NCBI GenBank assembly: GCA_951812335.1
Contig: OX638293.1
Location: forward strand, 2,246,731-2,310,730
DNA from: Rhodothermales bacterium
GTDB taxonomy: Bacteria; Bacteroidota; Rhodothermia; Rhodothermales; VXPQ01
Direction of reading: 5' to 3'
DNA: 64,000 bases
Positions within the stretch are counted from its first letter, which is position 1; every line of letters begins with the position of its first letter. Of the stretch, positions 2,936 through 56,013 are shown piece after piece. Below the pieces are notes generated by a model. That model had not been told where the DNA came from. It saw nothing but the letters and a program-made list of their open reading frames with translations, and made no database searches. Both the position numbers and the translations under genes were made by a program.

Positions 2936-5119
2936 TTAACGGGTCTGTATGGCTCGCTTGGCCTGCCGAATCAACAGTTCCTGCACCCCATCCTCCTCGT
3001 CCCGCGACGTCGGCTGTCGCTGCACATACCGGCCGTCAGGGCCGAGGTCCCAGGCAAGACGCCGGTCCTCGAAATACAATTGCAGAATATCCCTGCACCG
3101 CTGCCGCAATGCAGGATCCTCGACCGGAATGATGACCTCCACACGATCTTCAAGATTCCTTCGCTGCCAATCGGCACTGCCCAGGTACACAAGCGGGTTT
3201 CCTGCGTTATGGAAACAGAAAATGCGACTGTGTTCAAGAAAGCGGCCCACCACGCTGCACACCCGAATGTTTTCGCTATAGCCCGGCAAGCCGGGGCGCA
3301 AACGGTTGTGGCCGCGCACAATGAGATCGATCTTCACGCCTGCCTGGGATGCTCGGTATAGCTTGCGAATGATCCCCGTATCGTCGAGCGCATTCATCTT
3401 GGCAATGATGCGGCCATTGCCGTGCGCCTTGTGGTGCGCCACCTCCTGTTTCACGAGCTCGGCGAACGTATTGCGCATGTGTCGTGGCGCCACCAACAGT
3501 TTCTTGTAATGCTGCTCCGGAGCGTATCCGGTCAGGAAATGGAACAGGTTAATTATATCGTAACCGATATCCGCCCGGCAGGTGAGTAGCCCTGCATCCG
3601 TGTAAAAACGGGCCGTAGCCGGGTTGTAATTACCCGTGCCGATGTGACAGTAAGCACGCAGGCCACCATCTTCCTCCCGAATCACCAGTGTCACCTTGGC
3701 ATGCGTCTTGAGACCCACAAGACCATAGGTCACATGTACCCCCGCATTTTCGAGCCGCCTCCCCCATTCAATATTGTTTTCTTCGTCAAACCTTGCCTTG
3801 ACCTCAACCAACACAGCCACTTGTTTACCCCGCTCGGCAGCGTGAATCAGGGCGTCGATAATCGGAGATTTTTCTGAGGTACGGTACAACGTCTGCTTGA
3901 TGGCCAGCACGCGAGGATCTTCTGCGGCCTCCTCGATGAATCGTTGCACGCTGCTCCGAAACGATTCGTAGGGATGATGCACAAGGATGTCTCCTGTACG
4001 GATGACCGAAAAAATGTCGGGGTTGTTCTCGGACTCGCCCTCGAACCGTAGCCGTGCGGGTATCACGGAACGAAATGGCTTGTACTTGAAGCCGATCCCG
4101 TTCAGATGGTAGAAAAATGCGCAATCCGAATGGTCGATCAGACCGGTACTCACGTACACATCGTCGGCCGAAAGGCTCAATTCGCGCATGAGCAACTCCC
4201 GGAGACGAGGGGGCATGTCTTGCTCGACTTCGAGCCGGACCACGGGAGCGAATCGGCGTTCACGTAATTCATCGGACATCATCTCGATCAGATCGTCCGC
4301 TTCTTCCTCGTCCCGGCCGATGTCGGCATTGCGCGTGATCTGAAAGGCATGCGCATGTTCGACTTTCATACCGCGAAGCAATTCATGCAGGTTGTGCTGG
4401 ATAACCTGTTCCAGCGGCACGTAGTGATTAGGCTCTTCGAGCGGCACCCACCGCCCCTGACTGGTCGGCACTTTCACACGGGCAAAGTGTTCGGTGCCGC
4501 GCGTGGGATGGCGTAACAGAATGGCCAGCGAAAGGCTCAGATTGGAGATGAACGGAAACGGATGTCCGGGATCTACGGCAAGAGGCGTCAGAATAGGAAA
4601 AATATTGGCCTCGAAGTACCGGTACAATCGCTCCTTCTGCTGTTCCGAGAGATCGTCGTAGGACAGAATGCGAATGTTCGCACACTCGGCCAACTGCGGG
4701 CGCAACGACGTCTCCCATAGAGAAGTCATGGTTGCGTACATGGGCAACACCGCTTCCCGGATAAGTTGCAACTGTTCACGGGCCGTCCGCCCGTCCGGAG
4801 ACAAGGCATGCACCCCGGCGGCTTCCTGCCGTTTGAGGCCGCCCACACGCTTGCGAAAGAATTCGTCGAGATTGCTCGAAACAATGGAAAGAAAATGTAC
4901 ACGCTCCATGAGCGGGATACGCTCATCGATGGCCTGATACAACACCCGCCAGTTGAAATCGAGCCAACTCAACTCCCGGTTGAAGAACAGATGCGGGTGT
5001 TTTTCCACCCGGCCCTTCGGCGCCGGGCGAGGAGATGTGGCATGCGGCACAGGAAACACCGGCGCCGCCCCATCGCCGGAAGATATACTATCCGCGATAG
5101 CCGGAGTGTGGCTACTCAT
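2936..5119 (-). CDS. ppk1: polyphosphate kinase 1
   Basis: 727 residues, full length for PPK1. It reversibly transfers the gamma-phosphate of ATP onto polyphosphate. N-terminal domain motif 'FFNRELSWLDFNWRVL' (45-60) is typical. Two HKD-type phospholipase-D-like domains carry the catalytic histidines: 'GLKTHAKVTLV' (H473, the autophosphorylated residue by homology) and 'FLEHSRIFCFHN' (H630). 'GTGNYNP' and 'TDAGLLT' are also canonical. One oddity is 'VRGHNRLRPG' near 602-610, where most PPK1 proteins have RGICCLRPG. The gene lies 6 bp downstream of dnaG on the same strand, so the two are probably co-transcribed. The stop converges on that of the transglycosylase gene (20 bp apart). A polyphosphate-type glucokinase lies 2 kb away on the other strand. 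Confidence 0.96.
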   Translation of the reverse strand: MSSHTPAIADSISSGDGAAPVFPVPHATSPRPAPKGRVEKHPHLFFNRELSWLDFNWRVLYQAIDERIPLMERVHFLSIVSSNLDEFFRKRVGGLKRQEAAGVHALSPDGRTAREQLQLIREAVLPMYATMTSLWETSLRPQLAECANIRILSYDDLSEQQKERLYRYFEANIFPILTPLAVDPGHPFPFISNLSLSLAILLRHPTRGTEHFARVKVPTSQGRWVPLEEPNHYVPLEQVIQHNLHELLRGMKVEHAHAFQITRNADIGRDEEEADDLIEMMSDELRERRFAPVVRLEVEQDMPPRLRELLMRELSLSADDVYVSTGLIDHSDCAFFYHLNGIGFKYKPFRSVIPARLRFEGESENNPDIFSVIRTGDILVHHPYESFRSSVQRFIEEAAEDPRVLAIKQTLYRTSEKSPIIDALIHAAERGKQVAVLVEVKARFDEENNIEWGRRLENAGVHVTYGLVGLKTHAKVTLVIREEDGGLRAYCHIGTGNYNPATARFYTDAGLLTCRADIGYDIINLFHFLTGYAPEQHYKKLLVAPRHMRNTFAELVKQEVAHHKAHGNGRIIAKMNALDDTGIIRKLYRASQAGVKIDLIVRGHNRLRPGLPGYSENIRVCSVVGRFLEHSRIFCFHNAGNPLVYLGSADWQRRNLEDRVEVIIPVEDPALRQRCRDILQLYFEDRRLAWDLGPDGRYVQRQPTSRDEEDGVQELLIRQAKRAIQTR

Positions 5120-5125
5120 GTTGCT

Positions 5126-7081
5126 TCAACGTATGATTTCCCCTTTCTCTAAACGACCCCGCAAAGCTTGTAACTGGATAATATCCTGCTGGTACGTACG
5201 AATGTCATCGCCACTTGCTTCGGCCCGGGATTGTTCCTCGGCCCTGCGTGCTATGGCTTCATCCACGCGGACAATTTTCAGGCGTTTCATTGCCTGAAGG
5301 GCTGTCCCTTCGGGGTTTTCGTCCAGACGAGGTACGACAACGCCCTTTTTTTGCTCCCAGTTCTGCGACGGTTCTTCCTTGCGCACGGCTACCTCCGCAA
5401 CAAGCCGCTGTACCTCCGCACCATAGGCGCCGTCAAGAAATGCCTGCCGGTTCATGGATCCGGCCCGGTGTTGCTCGGCAAAACCTTTCACCGTGCGGCG
5501 CGGCGCCCCCGGAGAAAATTCATTCAGGCTCGTGTTTCCCAGAATGTAGCTAACCATCGGCAGGCCCTGCTCGAACATCAGGCGGATCAGTATCTTTTCC
5601 GTCGCAAGCGCTGAGGAATCGGACGGTCTTGTTCCGAATGTCGGTCCGCGAGACTTTTTGACAGATGGATCGTCGCTCCGACTGACGGATCTGCCCGTCG
5701 GCTGCCTGCCTCCCCCCGACGCCGGACGCCCCGTACGAACAGATCGTCGAAATTCCTCACGTTCGCGGGAGGTCGCCATGCTTTCCAACACATCGTACAA
5801 CCGGCCCTCGGGTACGCTGAATATCTCACTTGCCCGGGGCAGCCAGGCCTCTCGCCTCAGGACATCGGGTATACACGCAATGGCCTGGAGTACGGCGCGC
5901 ATACCGGCAGCCCGTCCCTCAGGGGTATCGAGCCGTCCGGCGCGGTGGTCGACATCATGCAACCAGCGTACGAAATCGACCCGGCGCTTTGCCAGGTAAT
6001 CGTTGAGAGACGCTCCTTCCCGCTGCGCAATGGAATCGGGATCCTCCCCCGCAGGAAGTTCCACCACGTAGACGCTCATGCCTTCTGCAAGCACGATGTC
6101 GATGCCGCGCCGTGCCGCTTTTTCGCCCGCCCCGTCCGCATCGAACACAAGCACGATACGCTGGGCATACCGGTGCAACAACTGTATCTGTTCACGGGTC
6201 AGCGAAGTACCGCAAGACGCAACGGTATTTCGAACGCCGACCTGGTGCAACGAGATAACATCCGTATAGCCCTCGACGAGCACCGCTTCTTCCTGCTCGC
6301 GGATAACTTGTCGGGCCTGGCGGAGTCCGTACAAAACCCGTCGCTTGTCATATACAAGCGTTTCCGGGGAATTGATGTATTTCGGCTGAGTATTTTCCTG
6401 TCCGCCAGTGGAATCGTCAAGCACCCTGCCCCCGAACCCCAGCACTTTTCCCATGTGCGAAAAAATGGGAAACATTATCCGGTCCCGATAGCGATCGTAA
6501 TATCCCTCGCCGCTTTTCCGGGGAATGACGAGTCCGGCCTGCTCCAGCGTTTCGACGGATATATGTTTCGCCTCCGCCTCCTTAAGCAATCGATTCCAGC
6601 CATCCGGAGCGTACCCGACGCCGAAATCCCTGATCATGGCCTTCGAATATCCGCGACCCTGCATATACGCCAGCGCTTTTTGGCCGGAATCGGCCTGGGT
6701 CAATCGGGCATAAAAGAACCGGGCGGCAAAACGCAGGGCGCCGTAGATCGCTTCCACGGTATCGGCTCGCTCGCGGGAAGTTGCCCCCTCCTCCGGCAAC
6801 TCGATACCTTCTTTTTCCGCCAGGGTACGCACCGCCTCAGGAAACGACATCCCTTCCACTTCTCTCACGAACCGGAACACGTCGCCCCCGGCGCCGCAAC
6901 CAAAACATTTAAAAATCCCCAGTTCGGGATTCACACTGAATGACGGCGTTTTTTCCTGGTGAAAAGGACACAGCCCGAAAAAATTGGAACCTTTCTTTTT
7001 CAGGCGCACATAGCCGCTCACGACATCGACGATATCCGACGCCGCACGTATTTCAGCAATTGTGTCGTCCGAAAAATACAT
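5126..7081 (-). CDS. dnaG: DNA primase
   Basis: 651 residues from the ATG at 7081, chosen because DnaG proteins begin right before 'IRAASDIVDVVSGYVRLKKKG'; the frame extends 22 codons further without similarity. CHC2 zinc ribbon: C38, H41, C59, C62 in 'CPFHQEKTPSF' and 'FKCFGCG'. The primase core follows, then the TOPRIM domain with 'VLVEGYTDVISL' and 'IVLVFDADGAG' (metal-binding acidic residues). The C-terminal third is the less conserved helicase-binding region. It synthesises RNA primers at the replication fork. The gene heads a minus-strand unit dnaG-ppk1 and is divergent from ppgK, with a 163-bp promoter region between them. No rpsU or rpoD neighbour is present, unlike the classical macromolecular synthesis operon. 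Confidence 0.96.
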   Translation of the reverse strand: MYFSDDTIAEIRAASDIVDVVSGYVRLKKKGSNFFGLCPFHQEKTPSFSVNPELGIFKCFGCGAGGDVFRFVREVEGMSFPEAVRTLAEKEGIELPEEGATSRERADTVEAIYGALRFAARFFYARLTQADSGQKALAYMQGRGYSKAMIRDFGVGYAPDGWNRLLKEAEAKHISVETLEQAGLVIPRKSGEGYYDRYRDRIMFPIFSHMGKVLGFGGRVLDDSTGGQENTQPKYINSPETLVYDKRRVLYGLRQARQVIREQEEAVLVEGYTDVISLHQVGVRNTVASCGTSLTREQIQLLHRYAQRIVLVFDADGAGEKAARRGIDIVLAEGMSVYVVELPAGEDPDSIAQREGASLNDYLAKRRVDFVRWLHDVDHRAGRLDTPEGRAAGMRAVLQAIACIPDVLRREAWLPRASEIFSVPEGRLYDVLESMATSREREEFRRSVRTGRPASGGGRQPTGRSVSRSDDPSVKKSRGPTFGTRPSDSSALATEKILIRLMFEQGLPMVSYILGNTSLNEFSPGAPRRTVKGFAEQHRAGSMNRQAFLDGAYGAEVQRLVAEVAVRKEEPSQNWEQKKGVVVPRLDENPEGTALQAMKRLKIVRVDEAIARRAEEQSRAEASGDDIRTYQQDIIQLQALRGRLEKGEIIR

Positions 7082-7244
7082 GCCGGGGCACATGTCTTGA
7101 AGAATCGGGAAGTTTGTGCCCGGCAGACTTGCCGGGACCGCTGCCATCCCTTAAAATGGGGTAGGAAGGAATAAGGTACGGCGCTACGGTAGCGCTGCAT
7201 CCTTCCGCCTTCATTCATCCGTAAGGCCAAGATACGATTCCGTT

Positions 7245-7997
7245 GTGGAAATTTTTGGGATTGATGTCGGCGGTTCCGGAATCAAGGGCGCTCCGGTAGA
7301 CGTCCGTACCGGTCGCCTCACTGCCGAGCGCCTGCGCATACCGACTCCGGAGGGGGCCTCGCCAAAAGAGGTCGCCGCCGTAGTGGTGTCCATGCTGGAT
7401 CATTTCCGCTGGAAAGGTCCGGTCGGATGCGGCATTCCCGCCCGTGTCAAGCAGGGCGTGGCGCACACCGCCGCAAATATCAGTGACTCCTGGATCGGTA
7501 CGAATGCCGCCCGACTTTTCTCCAAAGCATCCGGCCGGCCGTTCGCCATCCTCAACGATGCCGATGCAGCCGCCCTGGCGGAAATGCATTTCGGGGCAGG
7601 CCGCGGCCTAAAAGGCGTCGTCCTGATGCTCACCCTCGGCACAGGGATCGGATCGGCGCTTTTCGTGGACAACATGCTGATCCCGAACACGGAATTCGGG
7701 CATTTCTGGCTGCAGGGCCAAGTCGCCGAGCACTACGCTTCCGATCGGGTGCGCAAGAAGGAAAATCTGGATTGGGAAACCTGGGCTGCGCGTATGCAGG
7801 AATACCTGAGCCACCTCGAACGCCTGCTGGATATCGACACGATCATCCTCGGGGGCGGCATCAGCAAACCCAGTCGGAGTGAAAAATTCCTGCACTTGCT
7901 CAATACGAAAGCAGATCTGTTGACCGCAGAACTCAGAAACGAAGCGGGCATTGTGGGGGCTGCATGGACAGCCCGCCGTTTGGCGGCAGGTACGTAA
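7245..7997 (+). CDS. ppgK: polyphosphate glucokinase-type ROK kinase
   Basis: 250 residues, GTG start at 7245. ROK-family fold with an N-terminal phosphate loop '[15 protein letters not shown]', the sugar-binding '[11 protein letters not shown]', the second phosphate loop '[12 protein letters not shown]', 'EFGHFWLQG' and a C-terminal 'IILGGGIS'. The '[10 protein letters not shown]' and 'GTGIGSALF' forms and the short length are typical of strictly or partly polyphosphate-dependent glucokinases (PPGK), which phosphorylate glucose with polyphosphate and/or ATP. The gene is divergent from dnaG-ppk1 and 41 bp upstream of dapD. Proximity to ppk1 supports a polyphosphate role. ATP use cannot be excluded from sequence. 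Confidence 0.85.
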
Positions 7998-8038
7998 TCC
8001 GCCTTGCACAACATTCCTGCGGACATTCCTCTGTGTAT

Positions 8039-8881
8039 ATGACTACTTCCGAACTCGAAATCCGCATCGACGAACTGGCCGGTATGCAAGCGAACGAGGC
8101 GCCTCCGAACATTGCGCGGGAAGCCGTAGGCGAAGCGTTGGCAGCACTTGACCGAGGAGTTGTACGTGCCGCGTCACGAGACGAAGATGGTACATGGAGC
8201 ACGCACACCTGGGTGAAACGCGCTATCCTGCTGGGCTTTCGAATCGGCATACTCGCCGACTATTCGAGCGGCCCCTTTTCATTTCTGGATAAGGATACGT
8301 ATCCGCCAAGAGCCTTCGATACAGGACATCGGGTACGCATCGTACCGGGCGGTTCCACGGTTCGAACCGGGGCCTACCTCGCTCCCGGCGTCGTTTGCAT
8401 GCCGCCCATGTATGTGAATACGGGCGCCTACATAGACGAAAACACTATGATCGATTCCCACGCGCTTGTGGGCAGTTGTGCGCAAATCGGCAAACGTGTC
8501 CACTTGTCGGCGGCAGCGCAAATCGGGGGCGTACTCGAACCGGTCGGAGCTGTACCCGTCATTGTCGAGGACGATGTGTTCGTGGGTGGCGGGTGCGGCA
8601 TATACGAAGGGTGCCTTATCCGGGCAGGGGCCGTGCTCGCGCCGGGCGTTCTGCTTACCGGGTCGACGCGCCTCTACGACCTCGTGCGGGAAAATATCGT
8701 CGGACGCAACAAGCAAGGTATCCTCGAAGTGCCTGAAAATGCAGTCGTTGTGCAGGGTGCAAGAGCCGTTTCAGGAGCCTTCGCCGATCAACATGGGCTA
8801 TCTCTGTACGCCCCTGTCATCGTAAAATACCGGGACCGGAAAACGGATACGGCCACGGCACTGGAAGAGATGCTGCGATGA
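8039..8881 (+). CDS. dapD: 2,3,4,5-tetrahydropyridine-2,6-dicarboxylate N-succinyltransferase
   Basis: 280 residues from the ATG at 8039 (the frame runs 25 codons further up into ppgK). DapD converts tetrahydrodipicolinate and succinyl-CoA to N-succinyl-2-amino-6-ketopimelate in the succinylase branch of lysine/diaminopimelate synthesis. The N-terminal helical domain is followed by a left-handed beta-helix of hexapeptide repeats: 'RIVPGGSTVRTGAYLAPG', 'MPPMYVNTGAYIDENTMI', 'VGSCAQIGKRVHLSAAAQI', 'VIVEDDVFVGGGCGIYEG'. 'MPPMYVNTGAYID' and 'VGSCAQIG' are DapD signatures. Length agrees with the family (about 274). It provides peptidoglycan cross-link precursors, consistent with a Gram-negative wall. 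Confidence 0.95.
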   Translation: MTTSELEIRIDELAGMQANEAPPNIAREAVGEALAALDRGVVRAASRDEDGTWSTHTWVKRAILLGFRIGILADYSSGPFSFLDKDTYPPRAFDTGHRVRIVPGGSTVRTGAYLAPGVVCMPPMYVNTGAYIDENTMIDSHALVGSCAQIGKRVHLSAAAQIGGVLEPVGAVPVIVEDDVFVGGGCGIYEGCLIRAGAVLAPGVLLTGSTRLYDLVRENIVGRNKQGILEVPENAVVVQGARAVSGAFADQHGLSLYAPVIVKYRDRKTDTATALEEMLR

Positions 8882-9549: not shown

Positions 9550-10488
9550 ATGTACAAGGCCCCGGGGAGATCGCAAAGAACGGGTATTACGCTGTTTCAG
9601 CTGTTGGGGATGTTCCCCGATGAGGAAGCGGCGGAGCGCTGGTTCGAAGCCCAGCGTTGGCCCACGGGCGAACGCGCTTGTCCGAAGTGCGGATGCATGA
9701 GAACCTCTCGTGTCGAGAGCCGCAAGCCGATGCCCTTCTGGTGCAGGGATTGCCGCTCGTACTTCTCTTTGAAAACTGGCACCGTCATGGCGGATTCGAA
9801 CCTGTCGTTGCGTACCTGGGCGCTCGGTATATACCTTATGGCAACGAACTTGAAGGGCGTATCGAGTATGAAGCTGCATCGGGATTTGGGCGTGTCGCAA
9901 CCGACCGCATGGTTCATGGCGCAACGCCTGCGCGAAGGCTTGCCGTTCGCAACCGAGAAGATGGAAGGGATCGTCGAAGTAGACGAGACCTACGTAGGTG
10001 GCAAGGAATCGAACAAACATTTCCGCAAGAAACTCCATGTCGTGGGCGGAACCCAGGGCAAGGCAACGGTTATGGGGGCGAAAGAGCGCGGCGGCAAGGT
10101 CTTTGCTCGTCCTTTAGGCTGGGAGCCGGGCGAAACGCTTGCCGGATTCGTCCACGAGACCGTGGAGGCAGGCGAAACGGTCTACACGGACGATCATGGG
10201 GCCTACCGTAGCTTGAAAAACACGTACCGTCACGCAAGCGTGAAGCACTCCGTATCGGAGTACGTGAACGGACAGGCTCACACGAATGGTATCGAATCCT
10301 TTTGGGCGCTCCTGAAACGCGGCTACCACGGCACGTTCCACAAGATGAGCCGCAAACATCTGCATCGCTACGTTACCGAGTTTGCCGCGCGCCACAACTT
10401 GCGTAGCCTCGACACGCTGGAACAGATGCAGGTCATGGCCCGGAGTATGGAAGGGCGTCGTATCAAGTACCGCGAGTTGATTGTATGA
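9550..10488 (+). CDS. IS1595-family DDE transposase
   Basis: 312 residues, intact. N-terminal zinc ribbon with two CxxC pairs ('CPKCGC' and 'CRDC') followed by 'RSYFSLKTGTVM', the hallmark of the IS1595/ISXO2 group. The catalytic DDE-type core follows: 'VEVDETYVGGKE' (first Asp), 'VYTDDHGAYRSL' (second Asp) and 'NGIESFWALLKRGYHGTFH' (last acidic residue in the IS1595-specific box). It catalyses cut-and-paste movement of the surrounding element. The ATG at 9550 is preceded by an AT-rich leader inside the left end. No frameshift or stop is seen, so it is likely functional. Confidence 0.93.
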   Translation: MYKAPGRSQRTGITLFQLLGMFPDEEAAERWFEAQRWPTGERACPKCGCMRTSRVESRKPMPFWCRDCRSYFSLKTGTVMADSNLSLRTWALGIYLMATNLKGVSSMKLHRDLGVSQPTAWFMAQRLREGLPFATEKMEGIVEVDETYVGGKESNKHFRKKLHVVGGTQGKATVMGAKERGGKVFARPLGWEPGETLAGFVHETVEAGETVYTDDHGAYRSLKNTYRHASVKHSVSEYVNGQAHTNGIESFWALLKRGYHGTFHKMSRKHLHRYVTEFAARHNLRSLDTLEQMQVMARSMEGRRIKYRELIV

Positions 10489-10736: not shown

Positions 10737-11066
10737 TCATACCGCTCGGTTCTTTTTCACGTAACTCCGTTTCGGGGGCAAGTCCTGGCGAAAAATGAAG
10801 GCCGTCACATCCTCTCCGCTTTTCGGCACGGTTTTGACGGTGAATATGCGTCCATGATGCTTCATCAGATACGCCTTCAGCGGCTGCAACTGCTTTCTGG
10901 GGATCACAACCCGGAGGACGGTATCTTCCGTTAACAGAGCAGCTCTTTCGGATATGCCGGCATACTTGCTCCGGCGGCCAGGACGAGTATCGCCACTGCG
11001 TGAACGCATGGATGCAAGTTGTGACAGTGCATCATCCCTGGAAAGCGTGGAAGTACGAAATGCCAT
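10737..11066 (-). CDS. small basic GRxSKY-family protein, member 1
   Basis: 109 residues from the ATG at 11066; the frame runs further up, but homology to the two other members starts near this Met. The core 'PGRRSKYAGISERA', then 'LTEDTVLRVVIPRKQLQPL' and 'FTVKTVPKSGEDVTAFIF' align with the proteins at 55019-55312 and 55705-56013 (shared pattern GR(S/R)SK(Y/F), T/S-x-D-T/D-VL, hydrophobic helix with L-x-x-(Y/F)-L, then two strands). Predicted order is helix, loop, helix, strand, helix, strand, strand. The tail is very basic ('PPKRSYVKKNRAV'). Function unknown; the basic charge would fit nucleic-acid binding, but this is inference. A nested hairpin lies in its leader. Its stop is 15 bp beyond the IS end. 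Confidence 0.65.
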   Translation of the reverse strand: MAFRTSTLSRDDALSQLASMRSRSGDTRPGRRSKYAGISERAALLTEDTVLRVVIPRKQLQPLKAYLMKHHGRIFTVKTVPKSGEDVTAFIFRQDLPPKRSYVKKNRAV

Positions 11067-55018: not shown

Positions 55019-55312
55019 TTATCGGGAAGCAAGAAAAATGAATCCGGTAAAGGCGCCCTCTTTGCCGGTTGACGCCGTCTTGAGCACATACTTGTTTTCA
55101 AATCTTTTCCGAAGGAATGTACGCAACGGCTGTACCTCTTTCTTCTCCAGTCTGACCTTGAGCACCGTGTCACCGGTCAGGCGCTCCGCGGCCCGACCGA
55201 TGGAATCGTACTTGGAAGAGCGGCCCGTTCTCGAGGCGCCGTACATTTCTGCCTGTGCTTGTTCGGAAGACAGAACTTCGACGTAAAATTGACCGGCTTT
55301 TTTCTTTGCCAT
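55019..55312 (-). CDS. small basic GRxSKY-family protein, member 2
   Basis: 97 residues from the ATG at 55312. 'RTGRSSKYDSIGRAAERLTG', 'DTVLKVRLEKKEVQPLRTFL', 'KRFENKYVLKTAS' and 'AFTGFIFLASR' align with the members at 10737 (about 35% by eye over 70 residues) and 55705. Predicted helix-loop-helix-strand-helix-strand-strand. Rich in K/R, no Cys, no signal peptide, so cytoplasmic. Function unknown; nucleic-acid binding is an inference from charge. A promoter-like sequence and a hairpin with a T-run lie in its leader, suggesting control by attenuation. It is divergent from member 3. The 194 bp between etfA and its stop show nothing. Confidence 0.65.
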   Translation of the reverse strand: MAKKKAGQFYVEVLSSEQAQAEMYGASRTGRSSKYDSIGRAAERLTGDTVLKVRLEKKEVQPLRTFLRKRFENKYVLKTASTGKEGAFTGFIFLASR

Positions 55313-55369
55313 TGTGCAGGTTGCAGGTTAGTGGGAATTGGCGATGAATTGCGAGCAGTAGAGACAAAA

Positions 55370-55418
55370 AAGACGGAGCGACCTTATGAATGTCGCTACA
55401 CCCCGAGGGATCCGTCTT
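55370..55418 (-). promoter_or_regulatory. attenuator-like nested hairpin in the leader of GRxSKY member 2
   Basis: Outer arms AAGACGGA (55370-55377) and TCCGTCTT (55411-55418) pair over 8 bp; inner arms GCGAC (55378-55382) and GTCGC (55392-55396) pair over 5 bp. On the minus strand the outer 3' arm runs into TTTTTT, the form of an intrinsic terminator, 57 nt before the start codon. It begins about 20 nt after the predicted transcription start. Confidence 0.45.
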
Positions 55419-55445
55419 GTCGATAGAATCCCTCCGTGGCTTATG

Positions 55446-55474
55446 AGTATAACTAACGAAATGCAAATACACAA
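55446..55474 (-). promoter_or_regulatory. sigma70-like promoter for GRxSKY member 2
   Basis: On the minus strand, TTGTGT (55474-55469), a spacer of exactly 17 bp, and TATACT (55451-55446). The predicted start, about 55439, gives a leader of some 126 nt containing the hairpin at 55370-55418. Rhodothermota promoters are not well characterised, so this is tentative. The rest of the 55313-55704 gap is AT-richer than its surroundings and otherwise empty. Confidence 0.4.
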
Positions 55475-55704
55475 GACAGTAAATCATCGAATACGAGAAA
55501 TAATCTGGATTACTGAAAATAGACGAACTCTCTCCGTCCTTGCACCACATGCCTCACATGCCTATATTATCGAAAAAGAGGCAGTGGCTTGACGCGTTTC
55601 CGAATGCACGATAAGACCAATGGAATTGTGCCATCAAGGCTATTTACGCTCATTAACTGCTTCCTGGATTCGCATTCTCCTTATAACTACACCAACCACT
55701 TCCC

Positions 55705-56013
55705 ATGACATTCTATACAACGACCATATACAAGGACGAGGCCGAGGCGCTTCTGAGCAAGCTCCGTTCCAGAACCGACTCGGGCCCGGGGCGCAGTTCC
55801 AAATTCTATCCGCTCGTAAAGCATATTGAAGCGCTTTCAGGCGGCGATGTGCTGCGCATAGAGGCGCTATCCGTAACGGACGTAACGAACCTGCGGGGCT
55901 ATGTAGCGCGCAATGTCAAGGGGGGCAAGCACTTTGATATCCGGTCCCGGCGGCTGCGCAGTCCGGGCGCGAAAAGATTCCGCGTGTATGTTTCCATTGC
56001 AAAACAGAAATAA
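55705..56013 (+). CDS. small basic GRxSKY-family protein, member 3
   Basis: 102 residues. 'KDEAEALLSKLRSRTDSGPG' then 'RSSKFYPLVKHIEALSGGDV', 'LRIEALSVTDVTNLRGYVAR', 'KGGKHFDIRSRRL' and 'RFRVYVSIAKQK' follow the order of the members at 55019 and 10737; the residues preceding the motif match member 1 ('DDALSQLASMRSRSGDTRPG'). The most diverged of the three. Basic, cytoplasmic, function unknown. Its last 26 bp overlap the start of the DUF192 lipoprotein gene in another frame, so the two may be coupled. It is divergent from member 2. Confidence 0.65.
   Translation: MTFYTTTIYKDEAEALLSKLRSRTDSGPGRSSKFYPLVKHIEALSGGDVLRIEALSVTDVTNLRGYVARNVKGGKHFDIRSRRLRSPGAKRFRVYVSIAKQK

Follow-up and report, generated by a model that had tools for sequence, protein, structure and literature searches.

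Small GRxSKY proteins form an undescribed family in the class Rhodothermia

Three GRxSKY genes and their surroundings

The window, meaning the whole stretch of 64,000 nucleotides that was analysed from a Rhodothermales genome, contains three genes for small proteins with a GRxSKY motif. An earlier note on this DNA had pointed them out as paralogues, and the coordinates, strands and lengths that it gave are exact. The genes and the features that belong to them are as follows; the E-values were obtained with a homology profile made from other genera, that is, without sequences of the own genus, to avoid circularity.

55019..55312, minus strand: P0002, GRxSKY family protein of 97 amino acids (E 4e-17, the best of the three)
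55208..55225, minus strand: GRSSKY motif of P0002 (residues 30-35), where conservation across the family is highest
55313..55704, no strand: 392-bp spacer between the divergent genes for P0002 and P0003
55705..56013, plus strand: P0003, GRxSKY family protein of 102 amino acids (E 5e-12)
55789..55806, plus strand: GRSSKF motif of P0003
10737..11066, minus strand: P0001, GRxSKY family protein of 109 amino acids with a short basic C-terminal tail (E 2e-9)
10962..10979, minus strand: GRRSKY motif of P0001
9550..10488, plus strand: IS1595-type transposase adjoining P0001, outside the locus of the family (PF12762, 134 bits)

Are the three proteins really related? When the window ORFs of at least 50 residues were searched (729 ORFs), the other-genera profile matched P0001, P0002 and P0003 only, and P0002 is the one nearest to the other members of the family. 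A phmmer search with P0001 as the single query finds both P0002 and P0003. In the alignment of the three proteins, G30, R31, S33, K34, L45, V50, L51 and L63 are invariant, and the common order of elements proposed before is borne out by this shared GR-x-SK, L, VL and L pattern. Each protein has S-K-[YF] followed by a helix, a strand, an Arg-bearing helix and a hairpin (the structure was modelled for P0002); P0001 carries Lys where other members have the helix Arg. By sequence comparison, the three are homologues, paralogues of one family. None contains a cysteine, as had been noticed. The proteins were also described as basic, which is right for the three of the window (pI 11.2, 10.2 and 10.5) but not for the family at large, as the Salinibacter-type members have a pI of 4-5.

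A genome-wide count of the paralogues, proposed in the earlier note, gave three copies (P0001, P0002 and P0003; one contig of 2.69 Mb), and three copies exist in all six genomes of the genus, the present one and five sisters. All three loci are syntenic in the sister genomes. In orthologue pairs with these genomes, P0001 and P0002 have a dN/dS of about 0.1-0.2, and P0003 has one of about 0.2-0.5. Because these values are low, the three are regarded as real, constrained genes. Purifying selection acts on all of them, and P0003 is the fastest evolving, with the loosest constraint.

P0002 and P0003 are flanked by etfA and by DUF192-sufA-sufB-sufC, and likewise in the sister genomes (sufC by inspection). 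The divergent arrangement of the pair was found in the window and in three sisters (G003, G004 and G005), whose spacer measures about 390-406 bp, but in two others (G001 and G002) the genes are in tandem and the spacer is absent. Joint regulation through the intergenic region was considered and rejected, since the arrangement varies within the genus.

The gene beside P0001 is dapD-like, and the IS1595 element stands between the two. The element is missing from the orthologous loci L086 and L089, where the P0001 orthologue is separated from its dapD-like neighbour by about 200 bp, too little to accommodate it. Thus, the third gene does lie beside an insertion sequence, as claimed, but the insertion is private to the present genome. 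The transposase frame (9550-10488) is intact. Further along, the ppk, dnaG, ROK-family sugar kinase and dapD-like genes stand in a row at 2936-8881 of the window (ppk at 2936-5119); the sugar kinase is probably a polyphosphate glucokinase. The ppk-, dnaG- and dapD-like genes are also present at the corresponding place in the sister genome G004 (L086).

Distribution of the family

With an extended profile, the family was found in 155 of the 245 genomes of the class and in 110 of the 163 good genomes, usually with one to three copies per genome. Many of the carriers are salt-loving or marine bacteria. The families f16 to f20 are nearly always positive and have one or two copies; f16 is presumably the Balneolaceae. 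The distribution in the order Rhodothermales is patchy, with f15, f3, f4, f5, f7 and f12 lacking a match. A profile of 15 Rhodothermales members, none of which comes from outside the order, revealed relatives of about 85 residues (E down to 8e-8) in numerous genomes that belong to the class but not to Rhodothermales. The genomes of f14 are placed close to Salinibacter because the plasmid copies (see below) come from Salinibacter ruber. When 394 genomes sampled from the phylum were searched, a single match came from outside the class, in G383 (E 5e-7).

The gene lies near rpsA in Salinibacter and in one set of f16 loci. In another f16 set, which covers many f16 genomes and includes L054, L058 and comparable loci, the gene adjoins egtB- and egtD-like genes of the ergothioneine type (sulfoxide-synthase-like and histidine methyltransferase). 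No single conserved operon was found across the loci of the family, and therefore a general chromosomal protein fits better than a component of a pathway.

Neither the members nor the profiles have a convincing match in Pfam, NCBIfam, PHROGs or the PDB sequences, which agrees with the previous description of the family as uncharacterised. The PHROG matches are all weak (best 0.0034) and scattered; those in Pfam and NCBIfam are weak and spread over unrelated families, except for HTH_17 in a Salinibacter fusion and HC2 in an f9 tail. The RefSeq plasmid copy is annotated as a hypothetical protein only, and no publication on the family was found in the open-licence literature. This is a real, class-wide and undescribed family. 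That it is kept in most genomes of the class yet absent from the curated libraries searched is a gap in annotation.

Conserved residues and predicted structure

The conservation was assessed in 45 members (P0002 numbering). S33 is present in 44 of them, residue 34 is basic in 91% (K34), residue 35 is always Tyr or Phe (Y35), and residue 31 is basic in 82% (R31). L45 is conserved as well, as are R64 (basic in 91%), K78 (basic in 78%) and Ser or Thr at position 79 (44 of 45), while the rest of the pattern forms the hydrophobic core. Most of the conserved positions hold basic or hydrophobic residues, also when the acidic Salinibacter members are counted. The (T/S)xDxVL strand put forward earlier holds within the genus, but the wider family has G-D/E-x-(L/I/V) instead.

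Two AlphaFold2 models of P0002 were made from alignments of 15 and 45 sequences. Both consist of a helix (16-25), a helix (36-43), a strand (51-56), a helix (57-71) and two strands (75-81 and 87-94). The confidence is moderate (mean pLDDT 76.9 and 72.4, pTM 0.57 and 0.48, for 15 and 45 sequences), and the deeper alignment brought no gain. The models suggest one alpha/beta domain composed of an N-terminal strand-like stretch (plus a helix in the present genus), the GR-x-SK-[YF] loop, a short helix, a strand, a longer Arg-bearing helix and a hairpin. The first strand of the hairpin carries V-K-[S/T].

A Foldseek search of the PDB and of viral models gave no match with E below 0.001. With VIA-align, R3H domains came out on top for either model, namely PARN (2a1s, Z 7.5 over 64 residues at 2.4-2.5 A), KhpB (3gku, Z 7.2) and KhpB with RNA (9lri, Z 6.8), followed by TusA-like proteins, Alba, SpoVS, IF3-C and ribosomal S8. 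The scores for R3H (Z 6.5-7.5) and for Alba, IF3-C and SpoVS (Z 4.6-5.8; Alba up to 5.8, SpoVS 5.2, IF3-C 4.9) lie below the level that would exclude a merely common arrangement. The R3H, Alba, IF3-C and S8-type folds have been reported to be mutually alike (PMC3200294, PMC11621453). Going by the models, it is a likely guess that the domain belongs to an R3H/Alba/IF3-C-type fold group. Structure prediction and fold comparison, which had been proposed as a check, thus gave the same topology twice, but not membership in a known fold family by sequence.

The candidates were examined further. The GRxSKY domain resembles R3H (PF01424; KhpB/EloR/Jag and PARN) in its helix-strand-helix-strand-strand order, in the Arg of helix 2 and in the rank of R3H among the neighbours of both models, and the P0002 hairpin can be superposed by eye on that of KhpB. 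On the other hand, no member or profile matches PF01424, and the family lacks a KH domain partner. The R-x3-H motif was not found in helix 2, where the Arg position is basic in 91% but the residue at +4 is mostly Tyr or Arg (R in P0002, M in P0001, A in P0003). R3H membership was rejected, as hhalign against 12 R3H sequences gave a probability below 1%, 33 and 20 of 100 shuffles were as good, and reversed columns did likewise. Alba, SpoVS and IF3-C share with the family a beta-alpha-beta-alpha-beta-beta type of topology and are small nucleic-acid-binding proteins, whereas the GRxSKY family has no Pfam or profile match to them. Membership in these families found no support at the sequence level, since there was no Pfam hit and hhalign against four close IF3-C sequences stayed at background. 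To my knowledge, no GRxSKY motif is known in Alba. TusA and SpoVS were absent from the 21 relatives searched.

Fusions to a histone H1-like tail and to HTH_17

I found that the domain is joined to a Lys/Ala-rich, histone H1-like tail in all three genomes of the Rhodothermales family f9 (G013, G034 and G025). The reading frame of G013 continues past the domain (SGTSKYD...PGEAL) with a Lys- and Ala-rich stretch of about 190 residues, which matches Pfam HC2, a histone H1-like nucleoprotein family (65.6 bits, cut-off 40). This protein was recovered by a profile free of f9 sequences (E 1e-5). The domains of G034 and G025 are 72 and 66% identical to that of G013 and are followed by tails of 152 and 172 residues; their individual scores are weaker (20.7 and 16.7 bits), and they were assigned through G013. 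The f9 fusions lie at L120:4140-5027, L123 and L124; their tails span 152-188 residues, and the repeat make-up differs between the genomes. HupS and the mycobacterial HupB consist of a small DNA-binding domain with a Lys-rich tail (PMC11229371). The f9 proteins are like HupS/HupB and other H1-tailed proteins such as AlgP in joining a small domain to such a tail, but the GRxSKY domain is not HU, and most members, including the three of the window, have no long tail.

A second fusion was found in the Salinibacter genome G028, in which a second copy is placed behind an HTH_17 DNA-binding domain (38.4 bits, cut-off 27). This member resembles the HTH_17/excisionase-like proteins in that respect, while the three proteins of the window have no HTH_17. 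At L078:3966-5240, the fusion gene and an adjoining gene for a YgjP-like metallopeptidase come after genes that, by inspection, resemble those of type I restriction.

Possible functions

The fusions are the strongest lead to the function. Because relatives carry the domain fused to a histone H1-like tail or to a DNA-binding domain, DNA binding is probable, and I lean towards the prediction that the members are small nucleoid or regulatory proteins which bind DNA with little sequence specificity. Nucleic-acid binding had been proposed in the earlier note, and the H1-like tails, the HTH_17 fusion and the structural neighbours, most of which are DNA or RNA binders (R3H, Alba, IF3-C and S8), point the same way. 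DNA binding is further favoured by the distant G383 copy in a prophage replication/recombination module (see below) and by the prevalence of basic and hydrophobic residues at the conserved positions. The GRxSKY loop, the Arg of helix 2 and the strand Lys would be held on one face of the domain, and the conserved basic residues R31, K34, R64 and K78 (P0002) would be the likely contact surface. In some lineages, the affinity or the targeting may be tuned by the basic tail or the HTH domain. Several observations count against DNA binding: each fusion is confined to a single lineage; 8 of the 45 members are acidic overall; the models are of moderate confidence, with no Foldseek match of E below 0.001 and with Z values of at most 7.5 that may reflect only a common arrangement; TusA, which is among the structural neighbours, is not a DNA binder; and H1-like tails also occur on the polyphosphate- and PHA-granule proteins AlgP and PhaF (PMC9239181).

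It is possible, though in my view rather unlikely, that the family members are lineage-specific architectural proteins of the chromosome in Rhodothermia-type bacteria, as the main or an auxiliary nucleoid protein. Their domain would be unrelated to HU, H-NS and histones, and the H1-like tail would have been gained independently of HU in one family. Another small fold with an H1-like tail would then exist in parallel to HU in actinobacteria, and the family would help to study how the chromosome is organised in Salinibacter, which has a very salty cytoplasm and acidic family members.

Next in rank after DNA binding comes RNA binding, which I consider unlikely: an R3H- or IF3-C-like domain would act on mRNA or the ribosome, as in KhpB/EloR, with the helix-2 Arg serving as the R3H Arg. 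R3H domains are the best VIA-align neighbours of both models (2a1s, 3gku and 9lri), and, provided that the numbering has no gaps in this part, R64 and R68 of the model coincide with the Arg and the His in the R-x3-H motif of Thermus KhpB. In addition, rpsA and cmk adjoin some loci, and R3H proteins (PF01424) are absent from 60 relatives, so that a substitute is conceivable. However, the profile comparison with R3H was no better than with shuffled columns, the His position is mostly Tyr or Arg, and the H1-like and HTH_17 fusions indicate DNA. Since AlgP and PhaF also have H1-like tails and P0001 lies near ppk in the present genus, it was also considered that the proteins tether polyphosphate or storage granules to the nucleoid. 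This seems improbable, as P0002 and P0003 lie beside etfA and suf genes, the Salinibacter and Balneolaceae-type loci that were read showed no polyphosphate genes, and the ppk linkage is limited to one genus.

Lower still than the granule tether, I would place adaptors that bring proteins together, for example ribosomal or Fe-S partners, without touching nucleic acid. The suf neighbours of P0002 and P0003 would suit such a role, small alpha/beta domains are often adaptors, and the DNA or RNA binding of the family is a prediction; the fusions to DNA-type modules and the conserved basic residues speak against it. Equally improbable is that these are accessory genes of mobile elements or phages which chromosomes have captured repeatedly. 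The earlier note had suggested a phage or mobile-element connection, which is for the most part not borne out: the window loci are not located in mobile elements but are syntenic in the sisters, with the IS private to one genome; most members are chromosomal genes present in one or two copies, near-universal in f16-f20; 50,697 phage records contained no clear homologue; and the sole IMG/VR match turned out to be flanking host DNA, next to the integrase of a provirus. A minority of the copies is mobile. These are found on pSR118 and pSR47, two plasmids of Salinibacter ruber (the pSR47 copy is apparently degraded), and at one integrase-linked locus of the Salinibacter-like genome G214 (L073:956-5706), where two copies, one with an N-terminal extension, lie no more than about 4 kb from a tyrosine integrase. 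The distant copy of G383 (L119:7642-7872, minus strand), 76 residues long, lies inside a prophage, in a replication/recombination module where it stands between genes for an SbcC-like protein, a helicase and replication initiation.
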